A DNA stretch of 40,638 bases, from positions 1 through 40,638 of the forward strand of contig JAISKK010000084.1 in the NCBI GenBank assembly GCA_031260965.1. Direction: 5' to 3'. A program made the translations under genes and the position numbers. Origin of the DNA: Desulfovibrio sp. GTDB lineage: Bacteria > Desulfobacterota > Desulfovibrionia > Desulfovibrionales > Desulfovibrionaceae. This document shows, one piece after another, positions 1-29,759 of the stretch; within the stretch, counting starts at the first letter, position 1; each line of letters opens with the position of its first letter. A model generated the notes under the pieces. It ran no database searches. It was not told where the DNA came from and was given only the letters and a program-made list of their open reading frames with translations.

Positions 1-53
1 GCAAGGCGAATTTACTTTGCCGTCAAGCAACAATCCCAAGCGTAAATTGCGCT
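1..53. repeat. Dispersed intergenic repeat, family 1, copy A (cut by window edge)
   Basis: Positions 1-46 are the reverse complement of 4631-4676 with three mismatches, and resemble a third copy near 21905-21952. The shared core reads GCGAATTTACT followed by GCAACAATC on this strand. The copy runs into the left window edge, so the second hairpin arm seen at 4675-4686 is not visible here. It lies just upstream of clpS. Confidence 0.8.
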
Positions 54-78
54 AGTGGCCATTCTAAAAATTGGATGC

Positions 79-107
79 TTGCCGAAATCTTGTAATTACG
101 GTAGAGT
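79..107 (+). promoter_or_regulatory. Possible sigma70-type promoter for the clpS operon
   Basis: TTGCCG at 79-84 is separated by 17 bases from TAGAGT at 102-107, with four of six consensus matches in each hexamer. It lies 60 bases before the clpS start and just after the repeat. The match is weak; no other better pair was seen in 47-166. Confidence 0.3.
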
Positions 108-166
108 GCATACATGAAACCATACAGGCTGAACAACATAAGCACCCGGATACGGCACAGGACAAA

Positions 167-475
167 ATGAGCAACAGTTCGACGGACAGACAGGCGAACC
201 TTGCGGCTGACACGCTTACCCGTGAGCCAAGGCGCTACAATGTGCTTTTGCACAATGACAATTACACGAGCATGGATTTTGTGGTTGAGGTGCTTGTTTC
301 CATATTCAGCAAAAACGCGACCGAGGCCACGGCCATTATGCTCGTGGTGCATGAAAAAGGTTCCTGCGTCTGCGGAATCTACACGCGTGAAGTCGCCGAA
401 ACCAAACTGGCTCAGGTCAGACAAAAAGCCAGGCAAGCGGGCTTTCCCCTACGTTGCACCATGGAGGAGGCTTAG
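167..475 (+). CDS. clpS: ATP-dependent Clp protease adaptor protein ClpS
   Basis: ClpS binds the N-domain of ClpA and delivers N-end-rule substrates to ClpAP in the cytoplasm. The predicted 102-residue protein has the family's characteristic N-terminal strand RYNVLLHNDNYTSMDFVVEV, the IMLVVHEKGSC segment and the AETKLAQVRQKARQAGFPL tail with the conserved ETK. The substrate-binding pocket residues N-D of HNDNYT and the following T/M are present. The frame is open further upstream to a TTG at 71, but the ATG at 167 gives the usual ClpS length and leaves out an unconserved leader; an AGGA at 159-162 precedes it. The stop codon is followed at once by the clpA ATG, the standard clpS-clpA pairing. 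Confidence 0.95.
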   Translation: MSNSSTDRQANLAADTLTREPRRYNVLLHNDNYTSMDFVVEVLVSIFSKNATEATAIMLVVHEKGSCVCGIYTREVAETKLAQVRQKARQAGFPLRCTMEEA

Positions 476-2797
476 ATGCTTGACGCCCATCTGGAGCGGG
501 CCTTCGCCCTGGCCGTAAACGTTGTGCGTACGCGCCGGCATGAATATTTTACCCTGGAGCACCTCCTCTACGGCATTTTATCCGAGGAAAAGGGTAAAAG
601 CCTTCTCGCGGAAATCGGCGTGAGCGTGGATGCATTGCGCCGCAAACTTGATGATTTTTTCAACGCACACTTAAACCCCATGCGCAATGAGGGTAACCGG
701 GAAATAGTCCAGACCCTGGCCATGGAAAGGGTAATGTCCCGCACACTGCGCCAGATGCAGTCCTCCGGCCGCATTCTGGCAAGTATAGGCGACATTCTTG
801 CCGGAATCATGGAAGAAGAGGATTCTTATGCAGCCTACTTCATCCAGGAACAGGGTATAAGCCGTCTGGACATTCTGGAGCACATTTCCGCTGATGCCCC
901 CGGCGTTGAAGATTCCGAAAACCGCGAAGGCGTTCGGGAAAAACGCTCCGGTCAGGAAGGCGATGAAAACAGCCAGGACAGCAAGGCCCTGCGCAAATAC
1001 ACTCAGGATCTGACAGCCAGCGCAGCCAACGGAGACCTTGATCCCCTGATTGGACGCCAGGAAGAACTGGAGCGGACCGTACAAATTTTGGCTCGGCGCA
1101 GAAAAAACAATCCACTTTTCGTGGGCGACCCCGGCGTCGGCAAAACTGCTCTGGCGGAAGGACTGGCCCTGCGCATCGTCTCCGGGGATATCCCGAAAGA
1201 ATTTCAGAACTCCCGTCTTTTTTCCCTGGACCTCGGCGGCATGATGGCCGGGAGCAAATACAGGGGCGATTTCGAGGGACGACTTAAATCCGTTCTCGCC
1301 GCGCTGGCCCGCATCCCCAAAGCCATACTTTTCATAGATGAAATTCATACCCTGGTGGGGGCCGGAGCGGTAAGCGGCAACGCTCTGGATGCCTCCAACA
1401 TCCTGAAGCCCGCCTTGGGATCGGGAAAACTGCGTTGCATAGGCAGCACCACACACGAAGAGTTGCGCAACCATTTTGAGAAAGACAAGGCCCTGTCTCG
1501 CCGTTTCCAAAAAATTGAAGTCCTGGAACCCAGCCACGCGGACTGCCGGGAAATACTCAACGGTTTGAAAGGACATTACGAAAAACACCATAACGTGCGC
1601 TACAGCCCTTCCGCCCTGGACGCGGCCTTGACCCTCTCCGCCCGTTATCTGCCGGAGGCGCGTCTGCCGGACAAGGCCATAGACCTTATGGACGAAGCCG
1701 GGGCAAGACGACGTCTGGCCAGAGCCGACAGTCCCGCCGGCAATCCAGCGGACGCGGGGAAAAAAGCCCCGCCCGCCAGAGTAAAGGTAGCCGACATCGA
1801 ACATGTGCTGCAGAGCATGGCCCGCATCCCCTCGGTCAAGGCAGGGGCGGCAGAAAAAGTTTCCCTGCGCCATCTGGAACGCGACCTCAAAAGCGCCCTC
1901 TTCGGACAGGACGAGGCCGTCTCCGCTCTGTCCAGGTCTGTGCTGCGCGCCCGCGCCGGTTTCCGGAGCCAGGGTCGCCCGCAGGGCTCCTTCCTTTTTT
2001 ACGGACCGACAGGCGTGGGGAAAACCGAACTGGCCAAACAGCTTGCCACCACACTCAAGGTTCCCTTCCTGCGCTATGACATGTCGGAATACATGGAAAG
2101 ACATGCGGTTTCGCGCTTTATAGGCGCGCCCCCCGGGTATGTGGGCTTCGATCAGGGCGGACTGCTCGTTGAGGCTGTCCGAAAAAATCCCCATGCAGTT
2201 CTTCTGCTTGATGAAATGGAGAAAGCCCACCCGGATGTCTTCAACGTGCTGCTCTCGGCAATGGATTATGCAACGCTTACGGACTCCGCCGGGCGCAAGG
2301 CCGACTTCAGCAATGTGATCATCATCATGACCACCAATGCCGGCGCCTTTGAGATGTCCAACCGCAGCATAGGCTTCAAGGCGGCCGCCGAACGCGACGC
2401 TCCGGCCGGCAAAGCGAAAAAAGCCCTGGAAAAAGTTTTCAGCCCGGAATTCCGCAACCGCCTGGACGCCATGATTCCCTTCCATGCCCTGTCCGATCCG
2501 GTCATGCTGAAAATTGTCGAAAAATTCCGCATGGAGCTTGAAGCTGGTCTGGCTGAACGTAAAGTCAGCCTCAGCATGAGCAAGGCCGCAGAAAAACACT
2601 TGGCCCAGGCGGGATATGACCCGGTATTCGGCGCCAGGCCCCTGGCCAGGGTGATGCGAGAAGAAGTGGAAGATACGCTGGCCGGGGAAATCCTTTTCGG
2701 TCGCCTGAAAAAAGGCGGAACAGTCCGCATTGACGCCACAGACGGGGAAAAGGGCCGGACAAAACTGCTTTTCAGCTACACAGCCCAGGCCAAATAG
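476..2797 (+). CDS. clpA: ATP-dependent Clp protease ATP-binding subunit ClpA
   Basis: Hexameric AAA+ unfoldase that feeds proteins to the ClpP peptidase. The 773-residue product has an N-domain (about 1-145), an acidic linker, a first AAA module with Walker [11 protein letters not shown] near residue 217 and Walker [15 protein letters not shown] near 283, and a second module with [10 protein letters not shown] near 509 and [14 protein letters not shown]. The tripeptide IGF near residue 630 (RSIGFKA) matches the loop that docks on ClpP. There is no middle coiled-coil domain of the ClpB type, which separates it from the disaggregase. The ATG directly follows the clpS stop, with GGAGG at 463-467 as ribosome-binding site inside clpS. 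No clpP is present in the window. Confidence 0.97.
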
Positions 2798-3481
2798 ATG
2801 GACGTAGAGGAAGCGGGAGCAGCAGCGCAGCCGGATAACTCCGAGACTGAAAAAGCCTCCCTGCGCGCACATTTCCGCGCCCTGCGCAAAGCCATGCGCC
2901 CTGCTGAACGCGCCGCCCTTTCCGAGGCGGCCTGCGCGCACCTTTCTTCTGCAGACGTATGGAAAAAGGCGCAAAGCGTCGCTCTCTACATGGCCGCGCG
3001 CGGGGAGGCCGATTGCCTGCCCCTGCTCAAACAGGCGCTGGCAGAAGGCAAAAAAGTTCTCCTGCCGCTCTGCCTTGACCCAGAACGCGACAACCGCATG
3101 TCGCTTGTGCCCTGCGCGAATCTGGAGAGCTTGCGGGTCGGCGCTTTCGGCATTCTGGAGCCGCCCGCGCCGCAGGGTTCCCGGCAATCGTTTGGACAAC
3201 CGGATCTGCTTCTTGCCCCCGGTCTGGCCTTTGACCGGCAGGGTTTTCGCCTGGGCCAGGGAGGCGGCTTTTATGACCGCCTCTTATCCGAATCCGCCTT
3301 GGACGCCACTCTGTGCATCGGTTTTGCCTACTCATTTCAGATTGTGGAGCAGGCGCCGCGCGCGCCTTGGGACAGACCGACGCACGCCCTGTGTACGGAC
3401 AAGGGTCTGTTTTGGGTGGACCAGACAGCCCCCCTGACAGGTTTAAAGCCAGGGACTGAAAATATAAAGGACGGAATGTGA
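2798..3481 (+). CDS. 5-formyltetrahydrofolate cyclo-ligase (MTHFS)
   Basis: Converts 5-formyl-THF to 5,10-methenyl-THF with ATP, returning a storage folate to the one-carbon pool. The 227-residue frame shows the family features: the basic N-terminal helix SLRAHFRALRKAM, the central VALYMAARGEAD strand, and the C-terminal ATP/folate signature LAPGLAFDRQGFRLGQGGGF followed by YDRLL. The first about 18 residues are not conserved, so the true start could be slightly downstream, but the ATG at 2798 directly follows the clpA stop. The stop overlaps the next gene by four bases (ATGTG-type junction). Its product feeds the same pool as FolD at 25598. The gene is usually called fau, ygfA or mthfs; no single symbol is assigned here. 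Confidence 0.93.
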   Translation: MDVEEAGAAAQPDNSETEKASLRAHFRALRKAMRPAERAALSEAACAHLSSADVWKKAQSVALYMAARGEADCLPLLKQALAEGKKVLLPLCLDPERDNRMSLVPCANLESLRVGAFGILEPPAPQGSRQSFGQPDLLLAPGLAFDRQGFRLGQGGGFYDRLLSESALDATLCIGFAYSFQIVEQAPRAPWDRPTHALCTDKGLFWVDQTAPLTGLKPGTENIKDGM

Positions 3482-4236
3482 AAGCTGAAAAGGAAATGAC
3501 AAATCTGGCACGCGCCGGACTTATCCCCTTCGTTTTTCCAGGTGTCCCCAATGTGCTTTGCGCTTTCGGAAGCGCCCTAAGCGGCGATATCCGCCTCGGC
3601 GGCGGCTCCGACGATGATGAGAAGGCGTGCGCCAAACGTCGCGCCATGCTCGCCGCAGCCGGACTTGAGCGCTGGGTAGAACTGGATCAGATACATGAGG
3701 ACGGCTTTATTGTTTCCCCCACACCTACCCCGCTCGAATTTCCTTCCACCCTGCGGGCCGACGGGGCCTGCAACAGAGAAAAAGACCTGGCCCTGCTCAT
3801 CAAGAGCGCGGATTGCCAGCCGCTTTTCCTGGCCCTCGCGGACGGATCGGCTGTAGCGGCTCTGCATGTGGGCTGGCGGGGCAATACCTTCAATTACCCG
3901 GCCATAGGTCTGAAACGCTTTTGCGAAACCTGCAAAGCCGCCCCTGGCGACGTGCGGGCCGTGCGCGGACCGAGTCTTGGTCCCAAATCCTCGGAATTTA
4001 TAAATTTCGCCACGGAATGGCCACCCGCATGCCACCATCTTTTTGACAGGACTGACTATACCATCGACCTTTGGCAACTCACTCACACCCAGCTCGTTAC
4101 GGCCGGCATGAAAGACAAACATATTTTCGCTCTGGATCTCTGCACCCAGTCCCTGCCCGGTCTGCTCTTCTCATACAGACGCGGCGATACAGCCCGGCAG
4201 GGGTCCATGATCTGGATAAGAGGGGATAAAGCGTGA
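3478..4236 (+). CDS. pgeF: Peptidoglycan editing factor / purine nucleoside phosphorylase family (YfiH, laccase-domain)
   Basis: Member of the DUF152/YfiH 'polyphenol oxidase' family. Family members have been described both as removing wrongly incorporated L-Ser from peptidoglycan precursors (PgeF) and as purine nucleoside phosphorylase/adenosine deaminase. The 252-residue product has the conserved core LIKSADCQPLFLALADG followed by AALHVGWRG, then RGPSLGPKSSEF and the tail LDLCT, FSYRRGDTARQGSMIW. The metal-binding His of LHVGWRG and Cys of SADC are present; the usual C-x-x-Y/F-E-V motif is replaced by GPKSSEF, which is atypical. The start is GTG at 3478 with AAAGGA about six bases upstream; an in-frame ATG at 3496 is the alternative. 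It overlaps both neighbours by four bases, indicating translational coupling. Confidence 0.85.
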   Translation: MKAEKEMTNLARAGLIPFVFPGVPNVLCAFGSALSGDIRLGGGSDDDEKACAKRRAMLAAAGLERWVELDQIHEDGFIVSPTPTPLEFPSTLRADGACNREKDLALLIKSADCQPLFLALADGSAVAALHVGWRGNTFNYPAIGLKRFCETCKAAPGDVRAVRGPSLGPKSSEFINFATEWPPACHHLFDRTDYTIDLWQLTHTQLVTAGMKDKHIFALDLCTQSLPGLLFSYRRGDTARQGSMIWIRGDKA

Positions 4237-4625
4237 GCATGGATTTCTGGCGGCTTTGCGTGCGCTCGGAGTTCTCAGCCGCCCACGCCCTGCGTAACTA
4301 CAAAGGCAAATGCGAGAACCCGCACGGGCACAATTTTTTGGTCGAGGCTGAGGTTGAGGGCGAAAATCTCGACCCGGACACGGAAATCCTGGCGGATTTT
4401 TCCTGTCTCAAGCTGGACCTCAATTCCGTGCTGCAAAGCCTGGATCACAAAGACCTGAATGTGACGCCGCCTTTTGACCGGCTAAATCCTTCCTCGGAAA
4501 ATCTGGCCCGGCATATCTTTCTGGCTCTGGCCCATCTGACGGACAAACGCGGAGTATGTCTGCGCAGCGTGACCGTCGGGGAAAGCCGCGCCCAGAGCGC
4601 CACCTACTGCCCCAAAGCGGACTAG
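4233..4625 (+). CDS. queD: 6-carboxy-5,6,7,8-tetrahydropterin synthase QueD
   Basis: Converts 7,8-dihydroneopterin triphosphate to 6-carboxytetrahydropterin, the second step of preQ0/queuosine synthesis. The 130-residue protein has the zinc-site pattern: FSAAHAL (first His) and CENPHGHNF (catalytic Cys plus two His), then the LDHKDLN motif, the conserved PSSENLA segment, and the E of VGES. The length fits bacterial QueD rather than the longer eukaryotic PTPS. The GTG at 4233 overlaps the pgeF stop by four bases; an in-frame ATG at 4239 is possible. Its substrate is made by a GTP cyclohydrolase I, supplied here by FolE2 at 14884. queC, queE and queF are not in the window. Confidence 0.92.
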   Translation: MSMDFWRLCVRSEFSAAHALRNYKGKCENPHGHNFLVEAEVEGENLDPDTEILADFSCLKLDLNSVLQSLDHKDLNVTPPFDRLNPSSENLARHIFLALAHLTDKRGVCLRSVTVGESRAQSATYCPKAD

Positions 4626-4630
4626 ATCAT

Positions 4631-4686
4631 TTTACGCTTGAGATTGTTGCTTGACGGCGCAGTAAATTCGCCTTGCAACAATCTCA
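4631..4686. repeat. Dispersed intergenic repeat, family 1, copy B, forming a hairpin
   Basis: TGAGATTGTTGC at 4639-4650 and GCAACAATCTCA at 4675-4686 are a perfect 12-bp inverted repeat with a 24-base loop. The element sits between the convergent ends of queD (+) and xthA (-). It may act as a bidirectional transcription or RNA-decay barrier; there is no T-run, so it is not a classical intrinsic terminator. Confidence 0.8.
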
Positions 4687-4725
4687 CGGCAAAAACTTAA
4701 ATCTCGCCGGTAAACGGCATCACTG

Positions 4726-5493
4726 TCAGAAATCCAGTTCCAGACCGACCGGGCAGTGATCTGAGCCGCCGACGGCAGCGTCTATCCAGGCGTTTTTCAC
4801 CTTGTCCTTAAGTTCCTCCGAGACAAAAAAATAGTCTATGCGCCACCCTGTATTGGTCTGCCTCGCTCTGGCACGGTAAGACCACCAGGAATATGCGCCC
4901 GCCAGATCCCCGTGCAGCAGCCGGAAAGTATCCACATAACCGCAGGCAATGACGCGATCCAGCCAGGCCCGCTCTATGGGCAAAAAGCCGGAGTATTTTT
5001 CATTCTCTTTGGGTCTGGCCAGATCAATGGGCCGGTGCGCGGTGTTGAAGTCTCCGCAAACCACGATGGGTTTGGACTTGCGCAGGTTCTCGGCGTGTCT
5101 GAGAAAGGCGTCGTAGTAGCCGAGTTTGTAGTTGAGACGCTCTTCGTTCATCTGGCCGTTGGGAAAATAGACATTAAAAAAGTGAAACTGCGGCAGTTCA
5201 AGATGAATAAGCCGCCCTTCCCCCTGCCAGGGCGCTTGCGGCAAATCAAAGTTCACGGCCAAAGGCTGGATGCGTGAAAAGGTCGCCACCCCTGAATAGC
5301 CGCGTTTTTTCGCCGCCGCAAACCAGGACACATGATAACCGGGGGCGGAACGCTGATCTTCCGGCACATCCGTAAGCTCGGCCTTGACCTCCTGCAGGGC
5401 GACTATATCCGCGTTCACGTCCTTGAACCAGGACCAGCCCCCGCTGGCGCACAGGGCGCGAAATCCGTTAACATTCCAGGAATACAGATGCAT
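4726..5493 (-). CDS. xthA: Exodeoxyribonuclease III
   Basis: AP endonuclease and 3'-5' exonuclease of base excision repair. The roughly 255-residue protein begins MHLYSWNVNGFRA, contains the metal-ligand motif ALQEVKAE, the catalytic FNVYFPNG and VCGDFNTAH segments, and ends with the IDYFFVS and GSDHCPVGLEL motifs of the EEP nuclease superfamily. The start at 5493 is preferred because GAGG lies five bases upstream and the N-terminus aligns with the E. coli enzyme; a second ATG three bases earlier (5496) overlaps the previous stop as ATGA. It is the last gene of the hydrogenase operon, an unexpected partner, perhaps because it was captured by read-through. Confidence 0.95.
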   Translation of the reverse strand: MHLYSWNVNGFRALCASGGWSWFKDVNADIVALQEVKAELTDVPEDQRSAPGYHVSWFAAAKKRGYSGVATFSRIQPLAVNFDLPQAPWQGEGRLIHLELPQFHFFNVYFPNGQMNEERLNYKLGYYDAFLRHAENLRKSKPIVVCGDFNTAHRPIDLARPKENEKYSGFLPIERAWLDRVIACGYVDTFRLLHGDLAGAYSWWSYRARARQTNTGWRIDYFFVSEELKDKVKNAWIDAAVGGSDHCPVGLELDF

Positions 5494-6938
5494 CATAACC
5501 TCTTTAAATCAGAGCTGCCCGCGCAAAACTGCGCCAAAGCCCTCTGGGCGGTTTTGGGGGGACAGATTGTCGCGTTGCCTCCGATACAGCCGTTTTCACA
5601 GCACATTACCTCAACCAGATTTCCCTCTTCGCATTTTCTATCTTTGGCCATTTTCTTGAGCAGTTTAATCGTTGTTTTATCCAGTCCGTTGATTACACAG
5701 GGCCGGACATCGCCTTGGGATATGGAGGCGACGGCCCCGGCAACTCCACCCGAAACCCCGAAATTTCGGCCCTGTTTTGAACTTTCAGTGTCAAAAACCG
5801 CTTCTTCGCAGTCAAGAATTTCAATATTCCTGGCAATCAAAAGCGCCCCGAGTTCCTCATAGTTCATAACGAAATCAATATTCGGATTGGCCCGCCCCTC
5901 GTTTTTTTTTGCCACACAAGGGCTTATAAAAACAGTGAGCGCGGACGGTTCATCCCGCCGGACTTTTTCGGCGATGTAATAGAGAGGGGTTTTTGTAGCG
6001 GAGACAAACTCCCTGATTTCGGGCAGATGCTTGTTGATAAACTGACTATAGCCGGCGCAACAGGAGGTGGTCATAAAAGGCGCTCCGGCCTCCATGCGTT
6101 CCGCAAATTCCCTGGCCTCATTACGGGTTGTCGTATCCGCGCCTTGCGCCACTTCATAAACATCCGCGAATCCGGCCTTTTGCATCGCCGTCTTGAGCCG
6201 GTAAACACCGCCGGGGAATTGCCCGACAATGGAAGGCGCGATTAACGCGATAACCCGCCCGCCGGATTGCATCTGCTTCAAGATATCAATGATCTGGCTC
6301 TTTTCATGAACAGCGCCAAAGGGGCAGTTCATTATACATTTTCCGCAGGACAGGCAGGCATCATAATCAATCTGGACAAAACCGTTTGTGTCTTTGACAA
6401 TGGCGTCAACAGGACAGGCATCTTCGCAGGGGACAATGATTTTTACGATGGCGTTGTATGGACACTGCGCAATACACATCTTGCAGTTTTTACATTTTGC
6501 GCCGTCAATGACCGATCTGCCGTTGCTCATGCTGATTGCGCCGAATTTGCACACGCTCTGGCAGGGTCTTGCCACACAACCCTGGCAGAGGTCAGTCACA
6601 TGGATGCGATGGGGGGTACAGCCTTTGCACGCGGCATCTATGACTGTAAGCGGACCGCTCGCTGGGGTCTCGCGCGCAAGGGCTTCCTCAGCATATACCG
6701 ACAACTGTTTTATTTCGTCGTCATTTTCTATGGAGAAACCGAGTCCGGCAATAATTCGGGTTCGCAGAATCGCCCGTTCCTTGTAAATACAACATCTGTA
6801 AGGAACATTCATGCCCTTCGGACGCATTTCAAAAGGAATAAGCTCAACATTTTTCGCAAAGTTCTCTGAAAAAAAAGCTTTGATGATTTTTACTAAAACT
6901 TCTTTTTTTATATGGATTGATTGGTTGTTATTATTCAT
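5493..6938 (-). CDS. [FeFe] hydrogenase, group B-type, multi-cluster ferredoxin N-terminus
   Basis: Predicted cytoplasmic iron-only hydrogenase of 481 residues. After an N-terminal region without clusters (about 1-105) come cysteine clusters CQGCVARPCQSVC (about 116), CKNCKMCIAQCPY (about 148), CEDACP (about 169) and CLSCGKCIMNCPFGA (about 195). The H-cluster domain follows with L1 TTSCCAGYSQF (about 290), L2 ISPCVAKKNEG (about 338) and L3 VEVMCCENGCIGGN (about 445), so all four H-cluster cysteines are present. The cysteine-rich VTDLCQGCVARPCQSVC arrangement and SCCAGY in place of SCCPxW fit group B enzymes rather than the prototypical group A. The ATG overlaps the stop of the upstream [2Fe-2S] gene (ATGA), and the weak local ribosome-binding site suggests coupling. 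Group B enzymes are little characterised; H2 evolution or a regulatory role are both open. HydE, HydF and HydG maturases are not in the window. Confidence 0.88.
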   Translation of the reverse strand: MNNNNQSIHIKKEVLVKIIKAFFSENFAKNVELIPFEMRPKGMNVPYRCCIYKERAILRTRIIAGLGFSIENDDEIKQLSVYAEEALARETPASGPLTVIDAACKGCTPHRIHVTDLCQGCVARPCQSVCKFGAISMSNGRSVIDGAKCKNCKMCIAQCPYNAIVKIIVPCEDACPVDAIVKDTNGFVQIDYDACLSCGKCIMNCPFGAVHEKSQIIDILKQMQSGGRVIALIAPSIVGQFPGGVYRLKTAMQKAGFADVYEVAQGADTTTRNEAREFAERMEAGAPFMTTSCCAGYSQFINKHLPEIREFVSATKTPLYYIAEKVRRDEPSALTVFISPCVAKKNEGRANPNIDFVMNYEELGALLIARNIEILDCEEAVFDTESSKQGRNFGVSGGVAGAVASISQGDVRPCVINGLDKTTIKLLKKMAKDRKCEEGNLVEVMCCENGCIGGNATICPPKTAQRALAQFCAGSSDLKRL

Positions 6939-7186
6939 AATTTTTTTTCTATATGATCTAAAACTTTTTCAATTGTTGCGTTAGAAATTATTTCATCATC
7001 AATCTTTACATAGGGAGACTCCGCATGTTCACCGTTTGACGTACACAGATTAAGACAGTTATGACCAGCTATAACAACTCTGTCGCCAAAACGGTCAGGA
7101 ATTATATCAACAAGATCTTGCAGATGTGAAGAACCCATTACATAACATGCGGTGCCAAGACATAGTTTTACAGTAATTGTATTCAT
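6935..7186 (-). CDS. Thioredoxin-like [2Fe-2S] ferredoxin domain protein (HndA/NuoE C-terminal type)
   Basis: An 83-residue protein corresponding only to the thioredoxin-like [2Fe-2S] domain of NuoE/HndA/HydC subunits. Four likely cluster ligands are visible as C9 and C14 (KLCLGTACYVMGS) and C44 and C48 (HNCLNLC). It lacks the N-terminal helical domain of full NuoE, so it is a small electron carrier or a partner subunit of the adjacent hydrogenase. AGGAAG lies seven bases before the ATG. The gene sits between the phosphatase and the group B hydrogenase and overlaps the latter by four bases. Stand-alone proteins of this type are commonly found beside sensory [FeFe] hydrogenases. The local sequence is very AT-rich. 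Confidence 0.85.
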   Translation of the reverse strand: MNTITVKLCLGTACYVMGSSHLQDLVDIIPDRFGDRVVIAGHNCLNLCTSNGEHAESPYVKIDDEIISNATIEKVLDHIEKKL

Positions 7187-7197
7187 TTTTCCGCTTC

Positions 7198-8358
7198 CTA
7201 TATATATTTGATATTTACAGTTTTGATATATTTTGTCTCCAGTAATTTGGCTATTTTTTTTATAATATTTTTTCTGATCTCAATTTCTATGGGCATATTC
7301 GGGTCGTAGTGCGCCTGATTGAGTTTCGCCCCCACCATAAAATTTATGCAGTCGCTTTCCAGAAAAAATTTAACGAGCTGTCCCGCCGCATCGTTATGCG
7401 TGACCGCCTCAGTTTCCTCCAGATATTCACAGGCGCGGGTCAGGGTTAAAATCCCCTCCGTCACCAAATCCACTCCCTTCATTTTTGAGACAGGAGGCAG
7501 GCTGCCGGCGTTGGTCAAAATCTGCGCTTCAACGGGAATATGCAGTTCACGCGCCAGAATATTCGCCGTTGTTCCGCCACAGATGGCTTTTTTGCCGGTA
7601 AAACGCTTGAAGACATACGCACAGGCGTTATCTTTATCCGCATGATAGGGCGGTCCCGTAAAAATCAGGGATTCCCTGGGTTGACGGCAGTATATGGACA
7701 CCGCCGAAATATCGTCCCTGGCTTTTTTGTCGACCTCGTTTCCTTTCGCGCAGTTAACTATCAATTTCGCTAAATCCCGGCTGGAAATGTCCGGCTGATC
7801 CTGCAATTTTTTTAAAAGAAATTCAATAAGTCCCTCCCGGCGCAAACCCAGTTTTAAAGCGGGAGATCCAAGTCCGGCCTGGGTTACTCCGTCCGAGCAG
7901 AAAATCAGCCTGTCGCCAAGCTCAAGTTTGATATTATAAATTTGCATATGCCGATTCGGAAAGGTCGCCGAAGTGACGACCCGCGCAACGGCGTCCATGA
8001 CTTCGCCTTCCCGGACCCAGACAAACTGCGGGTTTCCTTCTTCGACGATGCGCGCAAAACCCTCGTCATTGCAGTCAAAAGCGGAAAATGTGGCATAACT
8101 TATTTTTCTGACCCTGCAGACGGGAAGCGCATTCATGACGATTTCGCAGACACTTTGAATGTCCGCATCCGCTTCAATAAATTTCAAAAGCATGGTCGCG
8201 GTCATGCAGGAGAGGATATTCGCCTTAATCCCACTGCCCAGGCCGTCTGAAAGCACAGCGGCAAGTTTGCCCGTATCCTTGTTGCGCGAGGACAAAAAAT
8301 AATCCCCGTAGGCGTTCTGATCATATTTTTTCTGCTGTGTGCAATCAATGTCAATGAA
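7198..8358 (-). CDS. SpoIIE/PP2C-type serine/threonine phosphatase of the hydrogenase cassette
   Basis: A 386-residue PPM-family phosphatase. Metal-binding motifs are AVLSDGLGSGIKAN near the N-terminus, LIFCSDGVTQAG in the middle and ARDDISAVSIYC near residue 230. A further C-terminal region of about 150 residues (GKKAICGGTTANILARELH onward) is typical of the phosphatases found next to group C hydrogenases and has no function I can name. The start chosen is the ATG at 8358, which lies inside the hydS 3' end (eight-base overlap) and has GAGG nine bases upstream; a longer frame from a TTG at 8400 is unlikely. In the accepted model for HydS clusters, a PAS-type hydrogenase senses H2 and passes the signal through such a phosphatase; the target is unknown here. 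Confidence 0.88.
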   Translation of the reverse strand, partial: FIDIDCTQQKKYDQNAYGDYFLSSRNKDTGKLAAVLSDGLGSGIKANILSCMTATMLLKFIEADADIQSVCEIVMNALPVCRVRKISYATFSAFDCNDEGFARIVEEGNPQFVWVREGEVMDAVARVVTSATFPNRHMQIYNIKLELGDRLIFCSDGVTQAGLGSPALKLGLRREGLIEFLLKKLQDQPDISSRDLAKLIVNCAKGNEVDKKARDDISAVSIYCRQPRESLIFTGPPYHADKDNACAYVFKRFTGKKAICGGTTANILARELHIPVEAQILTNAGSLPPVSKMKGVDLVTEGILTLTRACEYLEETEAVTHNDAAGQLVKFFLESDCINFMVGAKLNQAHYDPNMPIEIEIRKNIIKKIAKLLETKYIKTVNIKYI

Positions 8359-10075
8359 CATCGCCATCCGCCTCATTGTCCGGGTCGTAGTCATGGGCAA
8401 TGGAATTCAAAAGCAGTTCCGTCTCAACCATATGCTCACCGAGCAGACCGGCGATTTCCTGGACGGTTGTGACGTTTTTCATAATAACTTCACGCGCTTT
8501 TTTGGCAATTTTCTCCCTGTTTATTTCCGATTTGGTCACATCAGTTATAATTGCCCCGACAATTTCGTCAGGCTCGATGGTAAAGGCGGAAATGTCATAT
8601 AATCTGTCTTTTACGGGAAAATGTTCTTTATGAATGTCTTTTTCCGATTTCAAGGCCTGCTTGAAAAGATCCGCAAAATCAATAATCCTGTCAATCGCCG
8701 CGCCCTCCAGCCCGTTCGGACGGGAGGCAAAAACATCATACAAGTCTCCGCAAAACATTCGCATAAACGCGTCATTCGCTTCCACAACATTTAACTCATT
8801 ATCAACCATAACAATTGCCGACGGCATACAGCGCAACATGGCGGCGGTCTTGCGCATGGCGATTTTACGCATATAGGAAACGCACATGGAAGGCTCGGCG
8901 TTGCCGGAAAGCAGCGCCCGTACCATATCCCGGCAGGACAGGTAACCGCAGCCGCCGCAGTTAAGTTCATCTTCTTCCGTTTGTTTGCCGATTTTTTTCA
9001 TGCCCGTAACCATTTCATCCAATGAATAAGACTTGCGGTCCACAGGATTTTCCGGATAGGATTCCGGCACAAGCACCCGCACCTCGGCGGGGATGGCATC
9101 TCTCTTCTGAATTTTCGCCAAAATATCAGAGGTGATATTTATTCCAGCTTTTTTTGAAGCCAGAGCCGGGCCGTTCACACAGCCGGCTGGGCATCCGAGA
9201 GCTTCTACAAAAATTTTTCTGCTGATTTTTTCAGGGTTAAATCCGTTTAAAGCCTTTTCAAATGTATCCAAGGTACTTATGCTAATCAGCTGAACATCAT
9301 CCCCAATGCCTGACTGCCTGATTGTCTCATTCATTCCTCCTTCAACAGGATACAAAGATCCTTCATATGCATCTTCCGGAACAAATTTATTATCATCAGT
9401 TATCTCAATTTCCTGTATACTGATAAATTTCTCTTTAATCCAATAATTTAACTCCTCAAATGTCAAAGCTGCATTAATCAGCTCAGGGTGCTTTGTAGCC
9501 TCATTCTTTTTTGCTATACATGGGCCGATAAAAACAATATCGATATCTCCATAAATCTGTTTCAGCATCTTTGCATGTGTTAAGGCTGGAGACGCTAGCG
9601 ACATGATATTTCTGGTAAATTTAGAATTATATATCCGCACATAATCAACAATAACAGGACAGCAGCTTGAAATATAAAGATCTTTTTCCGCATTTTCAAG
9701 CATGTCCGCAGTGGCGATAGAAACTTCCTGCGCCCCCAGCGCGGTTTCGCTCACCGCCGCAAAACCAAGTTTTTTCAGCAGCCCAATCATTAGCGGCGCC
9801 GAATAATCAAACACTCCTGCCCAACTGGGGGCCAGCGAAACAAAAACCTTCCGTTGCGACTGGATCAGCTTTTGCGCTTTCTCAATATCATAACGGATAC
9901 GTTTAGCTCCGGCTGGACAGGCGCGGACGCAACTGCCGCAGGAAATACATTTATCGCTTAAAATCGACGCATGCCCATCCTGTATTTTTATCGCTTTTAC
10001 ATGGCATTCGCGTACGCATTTATAGCAGTCGTTGCATTCATTTTTAAGCGTATAGACGGGATAAAGTTCATTCAT
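8351..10075 (-). CDS. hydS: [FeFe] hydrogenase, group C, putative H2 sensor with PAS domain (HydS)
   Basis: A 574-residue putative sensory hydrogenase. Two [4Fe-4S] clusters (CNDCYKCVRECHVKAI, CISCGSCVRACPAGA; residues about 14-60) precede an H-cluster domain with L1 ISSCCPVI (about 137), L2 IGPCIAKKNE (about 184) and L3 EALGCPAGCVNGP (about 295). Then follow a four-cysteine Fe-S domain (CGGCGYLSC...C, about 372-392) and a PAS domain (about 410-510, MPSAIVMVDNELNVVEAND). This order is that of group C (HydS) enzymes, thought to report H2 to a downstream effector. Both cysteines of SCCP are retained. The start has AGGAG eight bases upstream. It is the first gene of the operon. Residues encoded at about 9240-9660 are in a notably AT-rich stretch. 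Confidence 0.9.
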   Translation of the reverse strand: MNELYPVYTLKNECNDCYKCVRECHVKAIKIQDGHASILSDKCISCGSCVRACPAGAKRIRYDIEKAQKLIQSQRKVFVSLAPSWAGVFDYSAPLMIGLLKKLGFAAVSETALGAQEVSIATADMLENAEKDLYISSCCPVIVDYVRIYNSKFTRNIMSLASPALTHAKMLKQIYGDIDIVFIGPCIAKKNEATKHPELINAALTFEELNYWIKEKFISIQEIEITDDNKFVPEDAYEGSLYPVEGGMNETIRQSGIGDDVQLISISTLDTFEKALNGFNPEKISRKIFVEALGCPAGCVNGPALASKKAGINITSDILAKIQKRDAIPAEVRVLVPESYPENPVDRKSYSLDEMVTGMKKIGKQTEEDELNCGGCGYLSCRDMVRALLSGNAEPSMCVSYMRKIAMRKTAAMLRCMPSAIVMVDNELNVVEANDAFMRMFCGDLYDVFASRPNGLEGAAIDRIIDFADLFKQALKSEKDIHKEHFPVKDRLYDISAFTIEPDEIVGAIITDVTKSEINREKIAKKAREVIMKNVTTVQEIAGLLGEHMVETELLLNSIAHDYDPDNEADGDVH

Positions 10076-10176
10076 CGTTTAACTCCTGCAAAATACCCGG
10101 CAATTTGCCCGCGTAAATTCGCATATTCAGCGTCCACAGTCCCCCCCTTGCCAACACATAGACCTGCTGATAAAAA

Positions 10177-10194
10177 ATGTGCAAAATATCACAA
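10177..10194. promoter_or_regulatory. CRP/FNR-family-like operator palindrome
   Basis: ATGTGCAAAATATCACAA reads as TGTGC-N6-TCACA, one mismatch from the TGTGA-N6-TCACA pattern bound by CRP/FNR-family regulators. Desulfovibrio HcpR sites are described with a similar TTGTGA-N6-TCACAA form. It is about 100 bases upstream of hydS and 255 upstream of the cytochrome gene, so it fits control of hydS better. No regulator gene is in the window. Confidence 0.45.
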
Positions 10195-10370
10195 GGTTAT
10201 GCTATGAATTGTAGTGGAACTCAACACCGTAACCAGAAAATTTTGCCATGGTTTTTCGTAACACAATCTTTCCCCAAAGGCTATCTCCGCTGCCATGGAC
10301 AGGGCGAAGCTGCCGGGAAATTTCACCAATTCTATGTGCGGCCAAGGGGATTGTGGTCAGAGGGGGGTGC

Positions 10371-10399
10371 TTGACTTTTCTTACCTGCCGATTTAGAAG
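10371..10399 (+). promoter_or_regulatory. Possible promoter for the cytochrome/flavoprotein operon
   Basis: TTGACT at 10371-10376 is followed after 17 bases by TAGAAG at 10394-10399. The -35 is good and the -10 is weak (four of six). It lies about 50 bases upstream of the GTG start of the cytochrome gene. Confidence 0.35.
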
Positions 10400-10448
10400 G
10401 TCAGCATAGGGTCAAGATAGGCGTATTTTCTTCTGAAAGAAGGCTAAC

Positions 10449-10841
10449 GTGAGAAAGATAAATGTAATCTCATTTGTCATTCTGTTATTGATTGCATATG
10501 GTAATATGCCTTTTATTACATCAGTATATGGCATAGAACAGCCTAAAAAAGCACAAATTCCGACACATTTCTTGAGTGATCGTCATGAAGAATATGATTC
10601 ATGCATCGCCTGCCACAATGAAAAAAAACCATCTGCCGGCGCATTAGTCAGCATGGAACAATGTCTGCTCTGCCATGGTGAATGGGAAGAGCTTGCTGAA
10701 AGAACGAAAGCCTTTGAGGACAATAATCCCCATAGAAACCATCTGAATGAAATTGAGTGCTCGCTTTGTCATAAAGGACATGAGGAATCCAGTTTATTCT
10801 GCGCCAGTTGCCATGAGCAACTGAACGCAAAAATGAAGTAA
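10449..10841 (+). CDS. Periplasmic tetraheme cytochrome c (flavocytochrome c cytochrome subunit)
   Basis: A 130-residue exported electron carrier. Residues 1-28 form a Sec signal peptide (basic MRKIN then a hydrophobic stretch). Four c-type heme motifs follow: CIACH (52), CLLCH (72), CSLCH (104) and CASCH (118), with extra histidines (H46, H95, H98, H111) available as distal ligands. The spacing and the NPHRNHLNEIECSLCHKGHE segment resemble the cytochrome domain of Shewanella flavocytochrome c3 fumarate reductase, in which cytochrome and flavin domains are one chain; here they are two genes. GTG start with AAGG five bases upstream. Seventy-one bases separate it from the flavoprotein gene, including a small CCCGC/GCGGG hairpin at 10850-10864. 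The gene is AT-rich compared with those that follow. Confidence 0.9.
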   Translation: MRKINVISFVILLLIAYGNMPFITSVYGIEQPKKAQIPTHFLSDRHEEYDSCIACHNEKKPSAGALVSMEQCLLCHGEWEELAERTKAFEDNNPHRNHLNEIECSLCHKGHEESSLFCASCHEQLNAKMK

Positions 10842-10912
10842 GCACCACTCCCGCATGTGGCGGGTAAGTATCATGGTTTCTGCTGAACATTTAACGATCA
10901 GGAGAGTGGAAC

Positions 10913-12433
10913 ATGATGGCTAAAGCAAAAAAAACATCCGGTATTACTCGTCGTGATGTCCTGACAGGGGCCGCAGTTGCAGGGGCTGCTGTTGTCATGA
11001 CTTCGCTGCCTCTTTCGTCGGCCGAGGCTGTACCCGTACCGCAAAAATGGGACCAGACCTTTGATGTGGTGGTCATCGGCAGCGGATATGCCGGGCTGGC
11101 TGCGGCAGTTGAGGCGCATGACGCCGGTGCCAGTGTCGTTGTCCTCGACAAGGCGGCGATAGTCGGCGGCAATTCTGCAATCGCCAGTGGCGGCTATAAC
11201 TGCGCCGATCCCGAGCGTCAGAAGCCACAAAACATTGAAGACTCTCCTGACCTTCACTATCAGCAGACGCTGGCCGGTGGTGATTTTAGAGGCGATCCGG
11301 CAAAAGTTCGCTACTATGCTGATCATGCTCTGGATGGGGTGCATTGGCTAGAAAAATTGGGGGTCGTATTTGAGCCAAAAGTATATACTATAGTCGGCGC
11401 ATTGCATCCCAGAAGTCACGATCCTATTAAAAATGGACGCGGCGGCGCAATTATTGCGGTCCTGAAAAAACAACTTGACCAACGGAAAGTGCAGATCCGG
11501 CTGAATTGTGCCGTAACCGGCATTGTACGGCAGGAACCTTTGGCTGGAGAGGTCCTTGGCGTACAGGTTAAAGAAAAAAATAACGTTCTGCACATTCAGG
11601 CTAAACGCGGTGTAGTAATTGCTACTGGAGGATTTGGAGCAGATGTGGCTTTTCGTTCCAAATACGCCCCGCAGTATGACGAAAAATTGCCGACCACCAA
11701 CGTGCCGTGGGCCACAGGGGAAGTGCTGACCTATGCGCAGGATATTGGCGCGGATGTTTCGGGAATGGACTTTATTCAGCTTTTGGTTGCTTGTAATTAT
11801 TTTACCAAAAAATATGGCGATATAGCCAATCTTGGCATTGATCACGCCATCTTTGTAAACCTGAACGGCAAGCGTTTTGTGGCTGAGGACGCGCGTCGCG
11901 ATATTTTGTCAGGGAGCACACTGGCGCAGCCGGAAAAGGTATATCTATGGGTTGCTGATGATCGCGCCGGTAAACGCTATAGCCCTGAGCGGACCAAGAT
12001 GTCGCTGGACAAAGGACTATGTTTTACCGCGCCGACTCTGGAAGAACTGGCCAAGATACTGGAAGAAAAATTGAAAGTGCCATCGGCCGAGTTTCTGGCT
12101 ACCGTCAAACGCTATAATGAAATGGTCGCTTCCGGCAAAGACAACGACTTCGGCAAAAAGGGCATCAACCTTAAAGCAATTGAACAAGGTCCGTTCTGGG
12201 CCAGCCCCACACAGGCCGGTGTCCACCACACCATGGGCGGATTACGCACCAAGCCGGATACGGCACAAGTGCTTGACCGCAACGGGGTGATCATACCCAG
12301 ATTGTATGCTGCCGGCGAGGTTACCGGTGGGGTACACGGCACAAATCGCCTCGGCGGCAATGCGACAGGTGATTGTATAGTATTTGGCCGGCTGGCCGGA
12401 CAGACTGTTGTCAAGGAAACCCCACGAACCTAG
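10913..12433 (+). CDS. Tat-exported fumarate-reductase-like flavoprotein (flavocytochrome c flavin subunit)
   Basis: A 506-residue FAD enzyme of the FccA/FrdA/UrdA superfamily, predicted to reduce an unsaturated organic acid in the periplasm using electrons from the adjacent tetraheme cytochrome. A twin-arginine signal (ITRRDVLTGAAVAGAAVV) occupies the first about 40 residues. The FAD dinucleotide motif is DVVVIGSGYAGLAAAVEA; GKRFVAEDARRD carries the catalytic arginine; GVHHTMGGL and GEVTGGVHGTNRLGGNA carry the conserved His and Arg of the active site. The usual Q-x-HPT motif is replaced by FIQLLVACNYF, so a substrate-binding His is missing. There is no FMN_bind domain. Ribosome-binding site AGGAG is present; a second ATG follows at 10916. 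Fumarate is the default guess, but methacrylate-, acrylate- or urocanate-type substrates are equally open. Confidence 0.88.
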   Translation: MMAKAKKTSGITRRDVLTGAAVAGAAVVMTSLPLSSAEAVPVPQKWDQTFDVVVIGSGYAGLAAAVEAHDAGASVVVLDKAAIVGGNSAIASGGYNCADPERQKPQNIEDSPDLHYQQTLAGGDFRGDPAKVRYYADHALDGVHWLEKLGVVFEPKVYTIVGALHPRSHDPIKNGRGGAIIAVLKKQLDQRKVQIRLNCAVTGIVRQEPLAGEVLGVQVKEKNNVLHIQAKRGVVIATGGFGADVAFRSKYAPQYDEKLPTTNVPWATGEVLTYAQDIGADVSGMDFIQLLVACNYFTKKYGDIANLGIDHAIFVNLNGKRFVAEDARRDILSGSTLAQPEKVYLWVADDRAGKRYSPERTKMSLDKGLCFTAPTLEELAKILEEKLKVPSAEFLATVKRYNEMVASGKDNDFGKKGINLKAIEQGPFWASPTQAGVHHTMGGLRTKPDTAQVLDRNGVIIPRLYAAGEVTGGVHGTNRLGGNATGDCIVFGRLAGQTVVKETPRT

Positions 12434-12580
12434 TTTAAAGGTCGGCTCCGTCCATAAAAAAAGCATTTCAGGGGGACTGCATGGCAGTTCCCCTTGAAGT
12501 GTCTGAAGGTGCCGCCTTTTGGTCGGATCATGAGCAGTGAATGACGCCGGTTGCTTCTGCAATGCAGCGAAGGGGCTTAC
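12434..12580 (+). other. Strong hairpin in the flavoprotein-hybA spacer
   Basis: AGGGGGACTGC (12470-12480) and GCAGTTCCCCT (12484-12494) can form an 11-bp stem with one G-U pair and a three-base loop. No T-run follows, so it is not a typical intrinsic terminator; it could stabilise the upstream mRNA or partly limit read-through to the membrane subunits. The rest of the spacer holds no gene; AAGGGG before 12581 is the ribosome-binding site of the next gene. Confidence 0.6.
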
Positions 12581-13516
12581 ATGAACCGAAGAAAATTTTT
12601 ATCCTGTTTCACCACGGTGACCGCTGCTGTCACGCTTCCGTCCCTGAGAGGGGCTGCAGCTTCGAGCGCTCATCTGTTTGCGGATACGGATATGCTGGGC
12701 GTTCTGCATGATTCCGCGCGTTGCATCGGTTGCCGCAAGTGTGAAGCAGCCTGCCAAAAAGTCAATGCCGATGTGCTTCCAAGCCCCGATAAGTTAAAAT
12801 CTCCGGAGCCTTCTTTCTATTACCGTTCGGTGATGGATAAAAAGCGGCATACCGATTTTCAAAGATTTACCGTTGTTAACCGCTATAAAATAGAAGACCG
12901 GCTTCCGGTATACCGCAAATTTCAGTGCAACCACTGCATAGAACCGGCCTGCGCTTCAGCATGTTTTGTCAAAGCGCTACGCAAAACGCCGGAAGGCCCG
13001 GTGATCTACTCTCCGGACCTGTGTGTCGGCTGCCGCTATTGTATGATTGCCTGCCCCTTTTATGTGCCGGCCTATGATTACGACAACACCTGGAATCCCC
13101 TGATCTACAAGTGCACCATGTGCGCTCCGCGCCTCGCCAAAGGGCTTCTCCCTGGTTGTGTGGAATCTTGTCCCAAGGAGGCTCTGACCTTCGGCAGACG
13201 GAAAGAACTTCTGCAAATCGCCCGCCAACGCATTGTCGACAATCAGGGAATCTATGTGGATCACATTTACGGCGAATATGAAGTGGGCGGCACCTGCTGG
13301 CTGTATCTGTCTCCAGTGCCGCACAAAAACCTGGGTCAACCTGAAGTCGGCAAGACCGCGCCAACGGATCTTACAGCGGACATTTTGGGGACCGCAGGTC
13401 TGGCAGCGGGCATATTGACCGCCCTGTTGGGCGCGACCTGCCTTGTTAGCAGCCGGCGCAACAAGAAATACCCTGCCGGGCATGATGCCGGGGACGACAG
13501 GGGGGATGAGCAATGA
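12581..13516 (+). CDS. HybA-like periplasmic [4Fe-4S] ferredoxin subunit with Tat signal and C-terminal anchor
   Basis: A 311-residue electron-transfer subunit with four predicted [4Fe-4S] clusters: CIGCRKCEAACQ, CNHCIEPACASACF, CVGCRYCMIACPF and CTMC with GCVESCP. The N-terminus MNRRKFLSCFTTVTAAVTL is a twin-arginine signal. A hydrophobic segment near residues 270-292 followed by SSRRNKK is a C-terminal membrane anchor, as in E. coli HybA. The ATG at 12581 is chosen over an in-frame start 30 bases earlier because it places the Tat motif at the N-terminus and has an AAGGGG site. It overlaps hybB-like by four bases. Role inferred: carrying electrons between the NrfD-type membrane subunit and the periplasmic cytochrome. 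Confidence 0.9.
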   Translation: MNRRKFLSCFTTVTAAVTLPSLRGAAASSAHLFADTDMLGVLHDSARCIGCRKCEAACQKVNADVLPSPDKLKSPEPSFYYRSVMDKKRHTDFQRFTVVNRYKIEDRLPVYRKFQCNHCIEPACASACFVKALRKTPEGPVIYSPDLCVGCRYCMIACPFYVPAYDYDNTWNPLIYKCTMCAPRLAKGLLPGCVESCPKEALTFGRRKELLQIARQRIVDNQGIYVDHIYGEYEVGGTCWLYLSPVPHKNLGQPEVGKTAPTDLTADILGTAGLAAGILTALLGATCLVSSRRNKKYPAGHDAGDDRGDEQ

Positions 13517-14685
13517 ACTCCGAGTGCAAAAACAACAACACCCTGCTTGATTGTATAAAAAACAATCCTGTGACCGCCATTATACTGCTTGTGGGGCTTG
13601 GCCTGACTGTGGCGCGTTTTACATCCGGCATAGGTGGCGTCACCAATCTGGACAACAAGAACCCCTGGGGCTTCTGGATGACCTTTGACTTGCTCTGCGG
13701 CATAGCCATTGCCGCAGGAGGATTTGCTGTCACGGCAGCTTACTACGTCTTCGGGCAGAAGCATTTTGGCGTCTTTGTGCGTAGCACCCTTACCACGGCC
13801 TTTCTTGGCTATTTTTTTGAAGTCATCGCGCTCGTGTATGAAGTAGGGCAGCCGTGGCGACTGCCCTATCCCATATTCTGGTCACAGGGCACGAGTTCCG
13901 TACTCTTTCTGATTGGGTTATGCGTCTTTGCCTATCTGATGATTTCCTTTACCGAACTGCTGCCTGCTGTCCTGGAATGGCTTGGGAAAAAAGATGCAAG
14001 AAAAAAAGCTATACGCCTTGTCACCCCCTTGGCCGTGATCGGCGCTGTTATCGGCATTATCCACCAAAGCTCCCTTGGAGCGCTGTATGTCATTACTCCC
14101 TCCAAGGTGCATCCTTTGTGGTACACAACACTCATGCCCCTCAATTTCCTCGTCTCCAGCCTGTTTGCGGGTTTGAGTATGGTTGTGGTTGAAGGCTTGC
14201 TGTCCCACAAGTTTCTGCATGCCTATATGGACGGGCAGCACATTAAAACCGCCAACCGGGCAGTGTTTGGCTGCGGCAAGGCCGCCTGCTTTTTCATGTT
14301 TGCCTATCTTGCCATGAAAGTTGTCCAAATGGCCGACACCAGCCAGCACCTCTCCTCCGGCTACGGCGCGTTGTTCTTGGCGGAACTTGCGGGCGGAGTT
14401 GCCCTGCCCGCCCTTATGCTCCTTACAGGCATTGCAAGAAAACGCACAGGACTGATACAGGCCGGAGCCATAGTCGCAGTACTGGGCGTTGTGCTCAATC
14501 GTTTCAATGTGAGCCTTGTTGCTTTTAACTATAACCTGCCGGCGGCAGAACGGTATTTCCCAAGCTGGATGGAAATTGCCCTTTCCGTTTTCCTCTTTAC
14601 GCTCATGGTCGCGGCATATCGCTTTATCTGCTCCAGGATGCCGGTGCTGAAAACGCATAAAGAGTATGGGGAAGGAGTCGTCTAG
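13513..14685 (+). CDS. HybB/NrfD-like integral membrane quinol dehydrogenase subunit
   Basis: A 390-residue membrane protein with about ten hydrophobic segments, of the HybB branch of the NrfD/PsrC family. It has the typical PWGFWMTFDLLCGIAIAAGG segment, EVGQPWRLPYPIFW, and the GIIHQSSLGALYVI motif shared by HybB-type proteins. Such subunits exchange electrons between menaquinone and a periplasmic Fe-S partner without heme. There is no catalytic molybdenum or NiFe subunit nearby, so the likely partner is the flavoprotein/cytochrome pair just upstream. The start overlaps the ferredoxin gene by four bases. The downstream spacer holds a repeat rather than another subunit gene, so the module appears to be four genes. 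Confidence 0.9.
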   Translation: MNSECKNNNTLLDCIKNNPVTAIILLVGLGLTVARFTSGIGGVTNLDNKNPWGFWMTFDLLCGIAIAAGGFAVTAAYYVFGQKHFGVFVRSTLTTAFLGYFFEVIALVYEVGQPWRLPYPIFWSQGTSSVLFLIGLCVFAYLMISFTELLPAVLEWLGKKDARKKAIRLVTPLAVIGAVIGIIHQSSLGALYVITPSKVHPLWYTTLMPLNFLVSSLFAGLSMVVVEGLLSHKFLHAYMDGQHIKTANRAVFGCGKAACFFMFAYLAMKVVQMADTSQHLSSGYGALFLAELAGGVALPALMLLTGIARKRTGLIQAGAIVAVLGVVLNRFNVSLVAFNYNLPAAERYFPSWMEIALSVFLFTLMVAAYRFICSRMPVLKTHKEYGEGVV

Positions 14686-14797
14686 AGCAGTTAACGCTTC
14701 AAATAGTCGCTTACGGCGAGCAAAGCTCACCTGCGCCTATTTGGCGGCAAGGGTTTACAGGAAATCCTTGCGAGCATTTCATGTATGAAATGTTCTA
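14686..14797. repeat. Dispersed intergenic repeat, family 2, long copy, with hairpins
   Basis: CAAATAGTCGC (14700-14710) pairs with GCGCCTATTTG (14733-14743), ten of eleven positions, and CATTTCAT-GT-ATGAAATG (14775-14792) is a perfect palindrome. The core 14700-14721 matches 26527-26548 at 18 of 22 positions. It follows the hybB-like stop directly and may act in 3'-end formation. About 55 bases in the middle are absent from the other copy. Confidence 0.7.
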
Positions 14798-14824
14798 GCT
14801 GACCAGGATTTTTTCTTTTCTTTT

Positions 14825-14849
14825 GCGGGGAAAATATATAAGTTCCCGC
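14825..14849 (+). other. Small hairpin in the folE2 leader
   Basis: GCGGGGAA (14825-14832) and TTCCCGC (14843-14849) form a stem with one bulged G around an AT-rich loop, about 35 bases before the folE2 start. It could be a leader structure; I recognise no riboswitch class in it. Confidence 0.3.
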
Positions 14850-14883
14850 GGAAAATTAAAGGAAAAGCAGAGGTTTCACCGCT

Positions 14884-16158: not shown

Positions 16159-16163
16159 AAAAT

Positions 16164-19886: not shown

Positions 19887-19915
19887 GGTTTGACCTTTTT
19901 AAATGTAAAAATGCC

Positions 19916-28057: not shown

Positions 28058-28080
28058 CATTTGCCTACCGCTCACGTCCC

Positions 28081-28710: not shown

Positions 28711-28728
28711 GGTCTTCCTCCTTAATCC

Positions 28729-29118
<390 letters not shown>

Positions 29119-29151
29119 GTCTGAACTCTTGGGTTTTCAGGTTAACGCAAA

Positions 29152-29520: not shown

Positions 29521-29537
29521 TTAACTCTCCTGCCCGC

Positions 29538-29651: not shown

Positions 29652-29724
29652 GGTAACGCTCCAGTTTACAGCTTTCCGGGATTTATTCAGACCAGGGAGC
29701 CGGTCCGGAGCCGGAACCAAGTCA

Positions 29725-29751: not shown

Positions 29752-29759
29752 TGCGGTTC

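Follow-up and report, generated by a model that had tools for sequence, protein, structure and literature searches.

The hairpin repeat dispersed over this Desulfovibrio sp. contig is best explained as a non-autonomous MITE of the IS630 family, which inserts at TA, carries three hairpins kept by compensatory changes, and may use that structure during its movement (probability about 0.88). The window, i.e., the whole stretch of DNA analyzed here (40,638 nucleotides), is contig 30 of a 2.46 Mb genome (G000; 164 contigs, 95.7% complete). The preliminary description had called the repeat "REP- or MITE-like"; the second half of that label stands, on account of the TA ends, the IS630-like ends, and a length of ~126 bp, and the first half fails on size, ends, and transposase. 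Three features by which a MITE of the IS630 family is recognized were found: a short length, which leaves no space for a transposase gene, a TA duplication, and terminal inverted repeats, albeit imperfect ones, in common with IS630 elements.

Reading the copies of this genome in register identified the hairpin described at 4631–4686 as the first of three in the ~126-bp element, which has the plan TA/GAGCA–hairpin 1–hairpin 2–hairpin 3–TGCTC/TA. The element begins with the left end TAGAGCA, followed by hairpin 1, which contains an inner hairpin, hairpin 2 with the arms GGCAAGGGTTTGC/GCAAACCCTTGC, and hairpin 3 with the arms AGAGCAGAT.../...ATCTGCTCT, and it closes with the right end TGCTCTA. 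Short forms also occur in the same genome (L014, L018, L025, and L030), in which hairpin 1 is followed by ...CTGCTCT or ...CTGCCCT.

The three hairpin copies first reported from the window (1–53, 4631–4686, and 21895–21952) are all present with slightly shifted bounds, but three is not the total, as the full-length copy D (14683–14797, plus strand) had been missed. Copy D has all three hairpins, reads CTAGAGCA...TGTTCTAG with TA at both ends, and appears by eye to be of the same subtype as copy L075 in another genus (G022). Copy A (1–56, minus strand) retains the left end, CTAGCGCA, and the greater part of hairpin 1; its match is broken off at its 3' end, where the contig breaks inside the copy. 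There is a parallel in the genome G012, where 9 of 20 stretches around copies end at a contig end. Copy B (about 4623–4692, plus strand) is a 5' part with the left end TAGATCA and hairpin 1, without hairpins 2 and 3. Copy C (about 21897–21960, plus strand) retains hairpin 1 in a decayed 5' part and lies between divergent genes. The near-identity of A and B on opposite strands was borne out, with 50 of 56 positions shared and no gaps, and so was the partial decay of copy C, which matches A and B more weakly and with gaps. Likewise, the stem of copy B is perfect over 12 bp, with the left arm at 4639–4650 pairing with the right arm at 4675–4686.

Copy B folds at –25.6 kcal/mol (z = –4.6; none of 200 shuffles as stable), and the fold of copy C is ordinary (z = –1.9; equaled or exceeded in stability by 11 of 200 shuffles). 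A search of its own genome with copy B gave E values of 4.8e-15 for copy A and 1.1e-13 for copy C, and a conserved 19-mer has two matches in the window (B and C) compared to 0.03 expected. No part of the window matched an Rfam family at the gathering score, and the four matches at E ≤ 0.5 in six loci with copies did not overlap the element. A search for terminators (a GC-rich hairpin followed by a T run) found 37 sites in 1–20000, none overlapping copies A, B, or D. Elsewhere in the window, positions 26593–40625 of the minus strand hold a tightly packed ribosomal protein cluster including rpoA, secY, and the genes for S3, L2, and L4, in which no copy of the repeat was found. A prophage was considered for this gene run (26.6–40.6 kb) and rejected, as none of six products matched PHROGs and the Pfam matches were to ribosomal proteins, SecY, and RpoA.

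The repeat had been expected to be present many times in the genome, and rather than finding no further copies, a genome-wide blastn search with copy B located it in at least 40 separate places, with 40 of 56 candidates scored. A full-length covariance model built from 14 full copies placed it in at least 49 separate places at E ≤ 1e-6, with 150 of 1297 candidates scored; 110 matches were listed at E ≤ 1, many of the weaker ones being opposite-strand echoes. With the same model, every one of the 15 genomes from the genus gave a match, as did 4 of 20 from elsewhere in the family and none of 24 from the order outside it. For wider sampling, a second model from 36 copies was used, which matched 39 of 149 sampled genomes of the family, in 15 of 44 genera, and 7 of 198 sampled across the phylum, one of the seven (G320) lying outside the family. 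The G320 copies (L330 and L334) belong to another family of the phylum and may reflect either transfer or old presence.

Several relatives are rich in the element, with at least 59 matches each in G004, G005, G008, and G012. Judged by eye, copies are more alike within one genome than between genomes, as if lineages had undergone their own bursts of the element. In G136, 14 copies are identical and four more are 99.2% identical, with differing flanks; 19 stretches were fetched from this genome, and the nineteenth copy is divergent. The 14 identical copies indicate recent spread. The G136 consensus had no match in plasmid and phage collections, and one hairpin-2 pattern had no exact match in viral contigs. 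The relatives' copies are drawn from the highest-scoring matches, a choice that favors intact copies. A search for the repeat among 94 of 221 loci gave 100 matches, including opposite-strand echoes that were removed in the analysis of gene positions.

The ends of the element are best preserved where its copies are youngest. TA is found at both ends in all 18 full near-identical copies of G136, in 14/14 copies of G012, 12/18 of G004, 11/20 of other genomes, 3/17 of G005, and 2/29 of the window's own genome (one opposite-strand echo each being subtracted in G004 and the own genome). Moreover, the G012 copies L089 and L107, which sit within another dispersed repeat of that genome, each have about eight unoccupied paralogous places that are continuous through a single TA. 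This second dispersed repeat (...TTTCGCCGTTAAGCGCCGGAGGAGGCG...) acts as a landing site for the element at L089, L107, L108, and L164. In the window's own genome the ends are eroded, such that positions 1–3 agree with the consensus in 64% on average. Copies such as L003, L018, L025, and L029 often have CCAG or CTGG in place of the outer CTAG, or lack some of its bases; such changes might stem from VSR-type repair of CTAG. The target context of the element is YTAR, which surrounds 49 of 57 non-coding insertions compared to 166 of 859 background TAs, and IS630 itself prefers CTAG.

Gene context was assessed with a simple codon-usage gene caller of our own, trained on long frames. The 42 copies scored in the window's own genome comprise 11 between convergent genes, 4 between divergent genes, 23 between tandem genes, 2 gene-internal, and 2 undetermined. 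The gene-position set adds 13 copies placed by hand (3 from the window and 10 short forms), the 3' ends of which are uncertain except in copy D. Called coding sequence contains only 4 of the 62 copies that have TA at both ends, compared to 41.7 expected from random TAs. The earlier claim that the window's copies use only intergenic sites is inexact, in that the left ends of copies B and D overlap TAG stop codons: the first three bases of copy B are the stop codon of queD, and the left TA of copy D falls within the stop codon of the upstream nrfD-like gene. The window's QueD does not look truncated, since it ends a few residues beyond the last conserved ones, as in its relatives. No empty site for copy B was recovered by synteny, because the relatives with queD and the downstream exonuclease gene have them on different contigs.

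Stop codons are hit more often than expected. Among the non-coding insertions with TA at both ends, 18 of 57 coincide with a stop codon once the site is restored, compared to 7.7 expected (P = 2.5e-5; 57 of 58 non-coding copies scored), and the excess becomes smaller when the YTAR context is controlled for and L009 and duplicates are left out (18 compared to 11.6 expected, P = 0.004). These per-site tests replaced an earlier test whose null fraction was uneven (28/185 in the window and 35/733 in the loci). When the element is removed in silico, TAA or TAG is restored at 28 of 30 stop-overlapping ends; where TA is also present on the other side, this holds for 17 of 18 ends, the exception being L098, with the hand-set L009 excluded. 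The restored base of copy B is unreliable, as its right end is lost. A stop codon that is hit remains a stop because the element begins with TAG from either side. Furthermore, 6 of the 18 young copies of G136 sit in stop codons, and their near-identity implies that this placement arises at or soon after insertion.

Genes of the IS630 type (PF13358) occur in 12 of the 15 genomes of the genus and exceed the curated cut-off in 10. Scanning 30 IS630-type loci for TA-anchored inverted repeats led to L151 in G005 (contig JAITRF010000069.1 of Desulfovibrio sp. isolate Roe453_bin138, a MAG), an IS630-family element of 998 bp whose ends, TAGAGCATTTTAACTTTGAAA, match at 21 of 22 positions. The second of its frames hits PF13358 (E = 3.2e-32) and scores above the cut-off of the NCBI (NCBIfam) IS630 transposase model. 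IS630 elements with TAGAGCATTT ends and related transposases were also identified in G022 and G063 (two copies), and an element of G122 has TAGAGCATTT on one side and TAGAGTATTT on the opposite side. The related products are 57–75% identical to that of L151 where aligned, and the family's IS630 elements with repeat-like ends measure 988–998 bp. Both ends of the repeat resemble the IS630 ends in 12–16 of 20 positions beyond the TA; the resemblance is imperfect, although at most 15 of 20,000 shuffles were as good in any of 18 comparisons (the comparison for G136 used the IS of G063). The first 15 bases of the repeat had a sole match in the 30 IS630 loci, which was a copy of the repeat itself in L175.

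Remnants of the L151-type transposase remain in the window's own genome (C15, E = 5.5e-23), G008, G012, and G004. The remnant C15 still has a legible TAGAGCA left end; G012 retains an interrupted relative, and G004 and the own genome retain fragments only. Since most ends are eroded and only a broken remnant of this transposase type is left, the element is probably inactive in the window's genome. The genome G136 is listed as 100% complete and has identical copies, and it gave no PF13358 match, which implies that its transposase was lost, lies on missing sequence, or is of another kind. The window's own genome has a second IS630-type element (L154, G000:C103) with an open frame of 359 aa. Its inverted repeats are perfect over 22 bp, start with TAGTCGATCC, and are unlike the repeat, and its product had no match to that of L151 at 1e-4. 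In L151, L284, and L289, the transposase gene is split over two overlapping frames whose junction is identical in position (KKN... / KKTL...), a shared split that may reflect frameshifting. An IS630 element in G063 (L283:1041–2142) adjoins a match of the repeat with two bases between them. Directly behind the IS630 element of G005 (L151:1000–1160), there are tandem GTTGTGCTAGT-like repeats within a reading frame.

The three hairpins are maintained by compensatory change. When 36 copies were aligned by sequence alone, representing 13 of the genus's 15 genomes (G007 and G009 left out), the three-hairpin structure, which was taken from one member, paired 91.1% of the cells. Double-sided changes occur in 28 of 48 pairs (170 cells), affecting 13/22, 6/11, and 9/15 pairs in hairpins 1, 2, and 3, respectively. 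The aligned copies are related, and sliding the partners by 1–3 columns as a control left 14–31 such cells; none of 500 shuffles reached the observed value. In G022 and G030, which represent other genera, the stem sequences are different, and the hairpin plan was recognized by eye and by single folds, that of G022 being cut short by the match.

The copies resident within a genome present a different pattern. Among 74 full-length copies (115–135 bp) of four genomes, there are 167 changes private to one copy at the 352 paired sites, compared to 85 at the 150 unpaired sites. The stem changes break the pair in 114 of 167 cases, and in 24 of 167 they are accompanied by a changed partner that keeps it. 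Per site, the private rates at paired and unpaired positions are 0.76 and 0.60 in the window's own genome, 0.29 and 0.55 in G012, 0.55 and 0.59 in G005, and 0.32 and 0.52 in G004. The drift of resident copies thus takes little account of structure, apart from the reduction in stems in two genomes (G012 and G004), which points to some constraint on residents. Mean agreement with the consensus of the genome, in which inherited changes are combined with private ones, is greater in stems than at unpaired positions in all four genomes (0.85 and 0.72 in the own genome; 0.95 and 0.92, 0.90 and 0.79, and 0.89 and 0.83 in the others). That covariation is kept, yet private mutations are near-equal in stems and loops, suggests that the structure matters more for moving elements than for the host. 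We infer that the covariation between lineages builds up chiefly in those elements from which new copies derive and that the hairpin structure serves the mobility or survival of the moving form.

The covariation could also have arisen without any role in movement. If the repeat were an RNA element recruited by the host, with transcribed hairpins that stabilize or process mRNA 3' ends, a host benefit would explain both the conserved, strongly RNA-like structure and the many copies at gene 3' ends, as well as the better agreement of stems than of unpaired columns with the consensus; moreover, RNase III or E processes the transcripts of other small MITEs of bacteria within mRNA (PMC10969869). However, the private mutations of residents fall almost equally on stems and loops and mostly break pairs, copies A, B, and D coincide with no terminator-like site in 1–20000, and the identical young copies of G136 are already placed in stop codons, which makes a host role improbable. 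Slightly better placed, but still unlikely, is a purely mutational and unselected origin, in which template switching in quasi-palindromes copies one arm onto the other. Such correction of arms is known in general, all paired arms of the element are close inverted repeats, and the 24 private stem changes with a pair-keeping partner are of the kind it would produce; against it, most private stem changes of residents remain uncorrected, 114 of 167 breaking the pair.

A REP or REPIN sequence spread by a REP-associated tyrosine transposase (RAYT) would likewise be short, palindromic, numerous, and mostly intergenic, and the window's own genome does have one Y1_Tnp gene (G000:C40). The search for a REP-associated transposase (PF01797) proposed in the preliminary description gave only this frame of 144 aa, and no copies of the repeat were found at its locus L222, nor at L223 or L228, at E ≤ 5. 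Y1_Tnp matches are absent from 5 of the 15 genomes of the genus (four of the five being 65–82% complete), whereas the element is in all 15. The unit of ~126 bp with three hairpins contrasts with the 20–40 bp of a REP, and the TA-duplicating ends, the empty sites, and the likeness of the ends to IS630 do not fit either; the transposase linked to the repeat is of the IS630/DDE kind. Spread by a RAYT is thus highly improbable.

Under the preferred reading, a MITE moved by IS630, the transposase would act in trans on the ends of the repeat by cut and paste. The element inserts at a TA, mostly in YTAR context, that becomes duplicated. The ends, which read TAG from the outside in, remake the stop when they enter the TA of a TAA or TAG codon, and since the stop is remade, sites in stop codons are harmless and retained. 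The structure may matter while the element moves, and resident copies would then decay with little regard to it. As for how the structure acts, we favor a mechanism in which the hairpins bring together both ends in DNA that is shorter than its bending length; alternatively, the structure may act during lagging-strand synthesis. A more specific version, in which mobility depends on the three hairpins folding a single strand so that the ends meet, leaving host copies free to decay, is tentative, with the odds somewhat against it. If true, it would mean that a transposon family has been selected for single-strand structure strongly enough to show RNA-like covariation, which a cut-and-paste element acting at the level of DNA is not expected to need.

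It has often been remarked that bacterial MITEs fold well, although it is, to our knowledge, rarely possible to test whether the element, the host, or neither benefits from this. In this family, the combination of covariation, identical new copies, decayed old ones, and recognizable IS630 partners allows structure, movement, and decay to be separated. In addition, ends that remake the stop codon they hit represent a harmless route of insertion.

In the openly available literature searched, this repeat family was not met, but its kind is already known. The repeat unit of pneumococcus (RUP) is 107 bp long with 108 copies and a TA target, and its ends resemble those of IS630-Spn1, an IS630-family element proposed as its mover, as described in PMC2229807. 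By that description, the two repeats are alike in size class, TA target, and IS630-like ends; RUP differs in occurring in other bacteria, and the present repeat in having three successive hairpins with cross-species covariation and a YTAR and stop-codon placement. ERIC and Correia/NEMIS elements are about 100–200 bp, have TA ends and hairpin-forming transcripts, and are mostly intergenic according to PMC2229807 and PMC10969869, and thus are like the repeat in size, ends, hairpins, and intergenic preference. According to the former source, repeats other than CIR fold by pairing the 5' end with the 3' end, whereas in the present repeat three separate hairpins stand in a row between the ends. The CIR-type repeat (PMC2229807) has separate arms with a linker and a structure kept between Caulobacter and Brucella; this two-arm repeat carries GANTC and its mobility mechanism is given as unknown, in contrast to the three arms and the IS630 link here. 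REPs are palindromes of 20–40 bp with a GTAG or CGTC tag according to PMC3733652, and REP/REPIN with RAYT share with the repeat the short palindromes and many copies but differ in size, ends, target, and transposase, the unit here being ~126 bp with the ends TAGAGCA...TGCTCTA (tags judged by eye). What is new relative to RUP with IS630-Spn1 is the three-hairpin plan with its covariation and a constraint that seemingly acts on the source elements.
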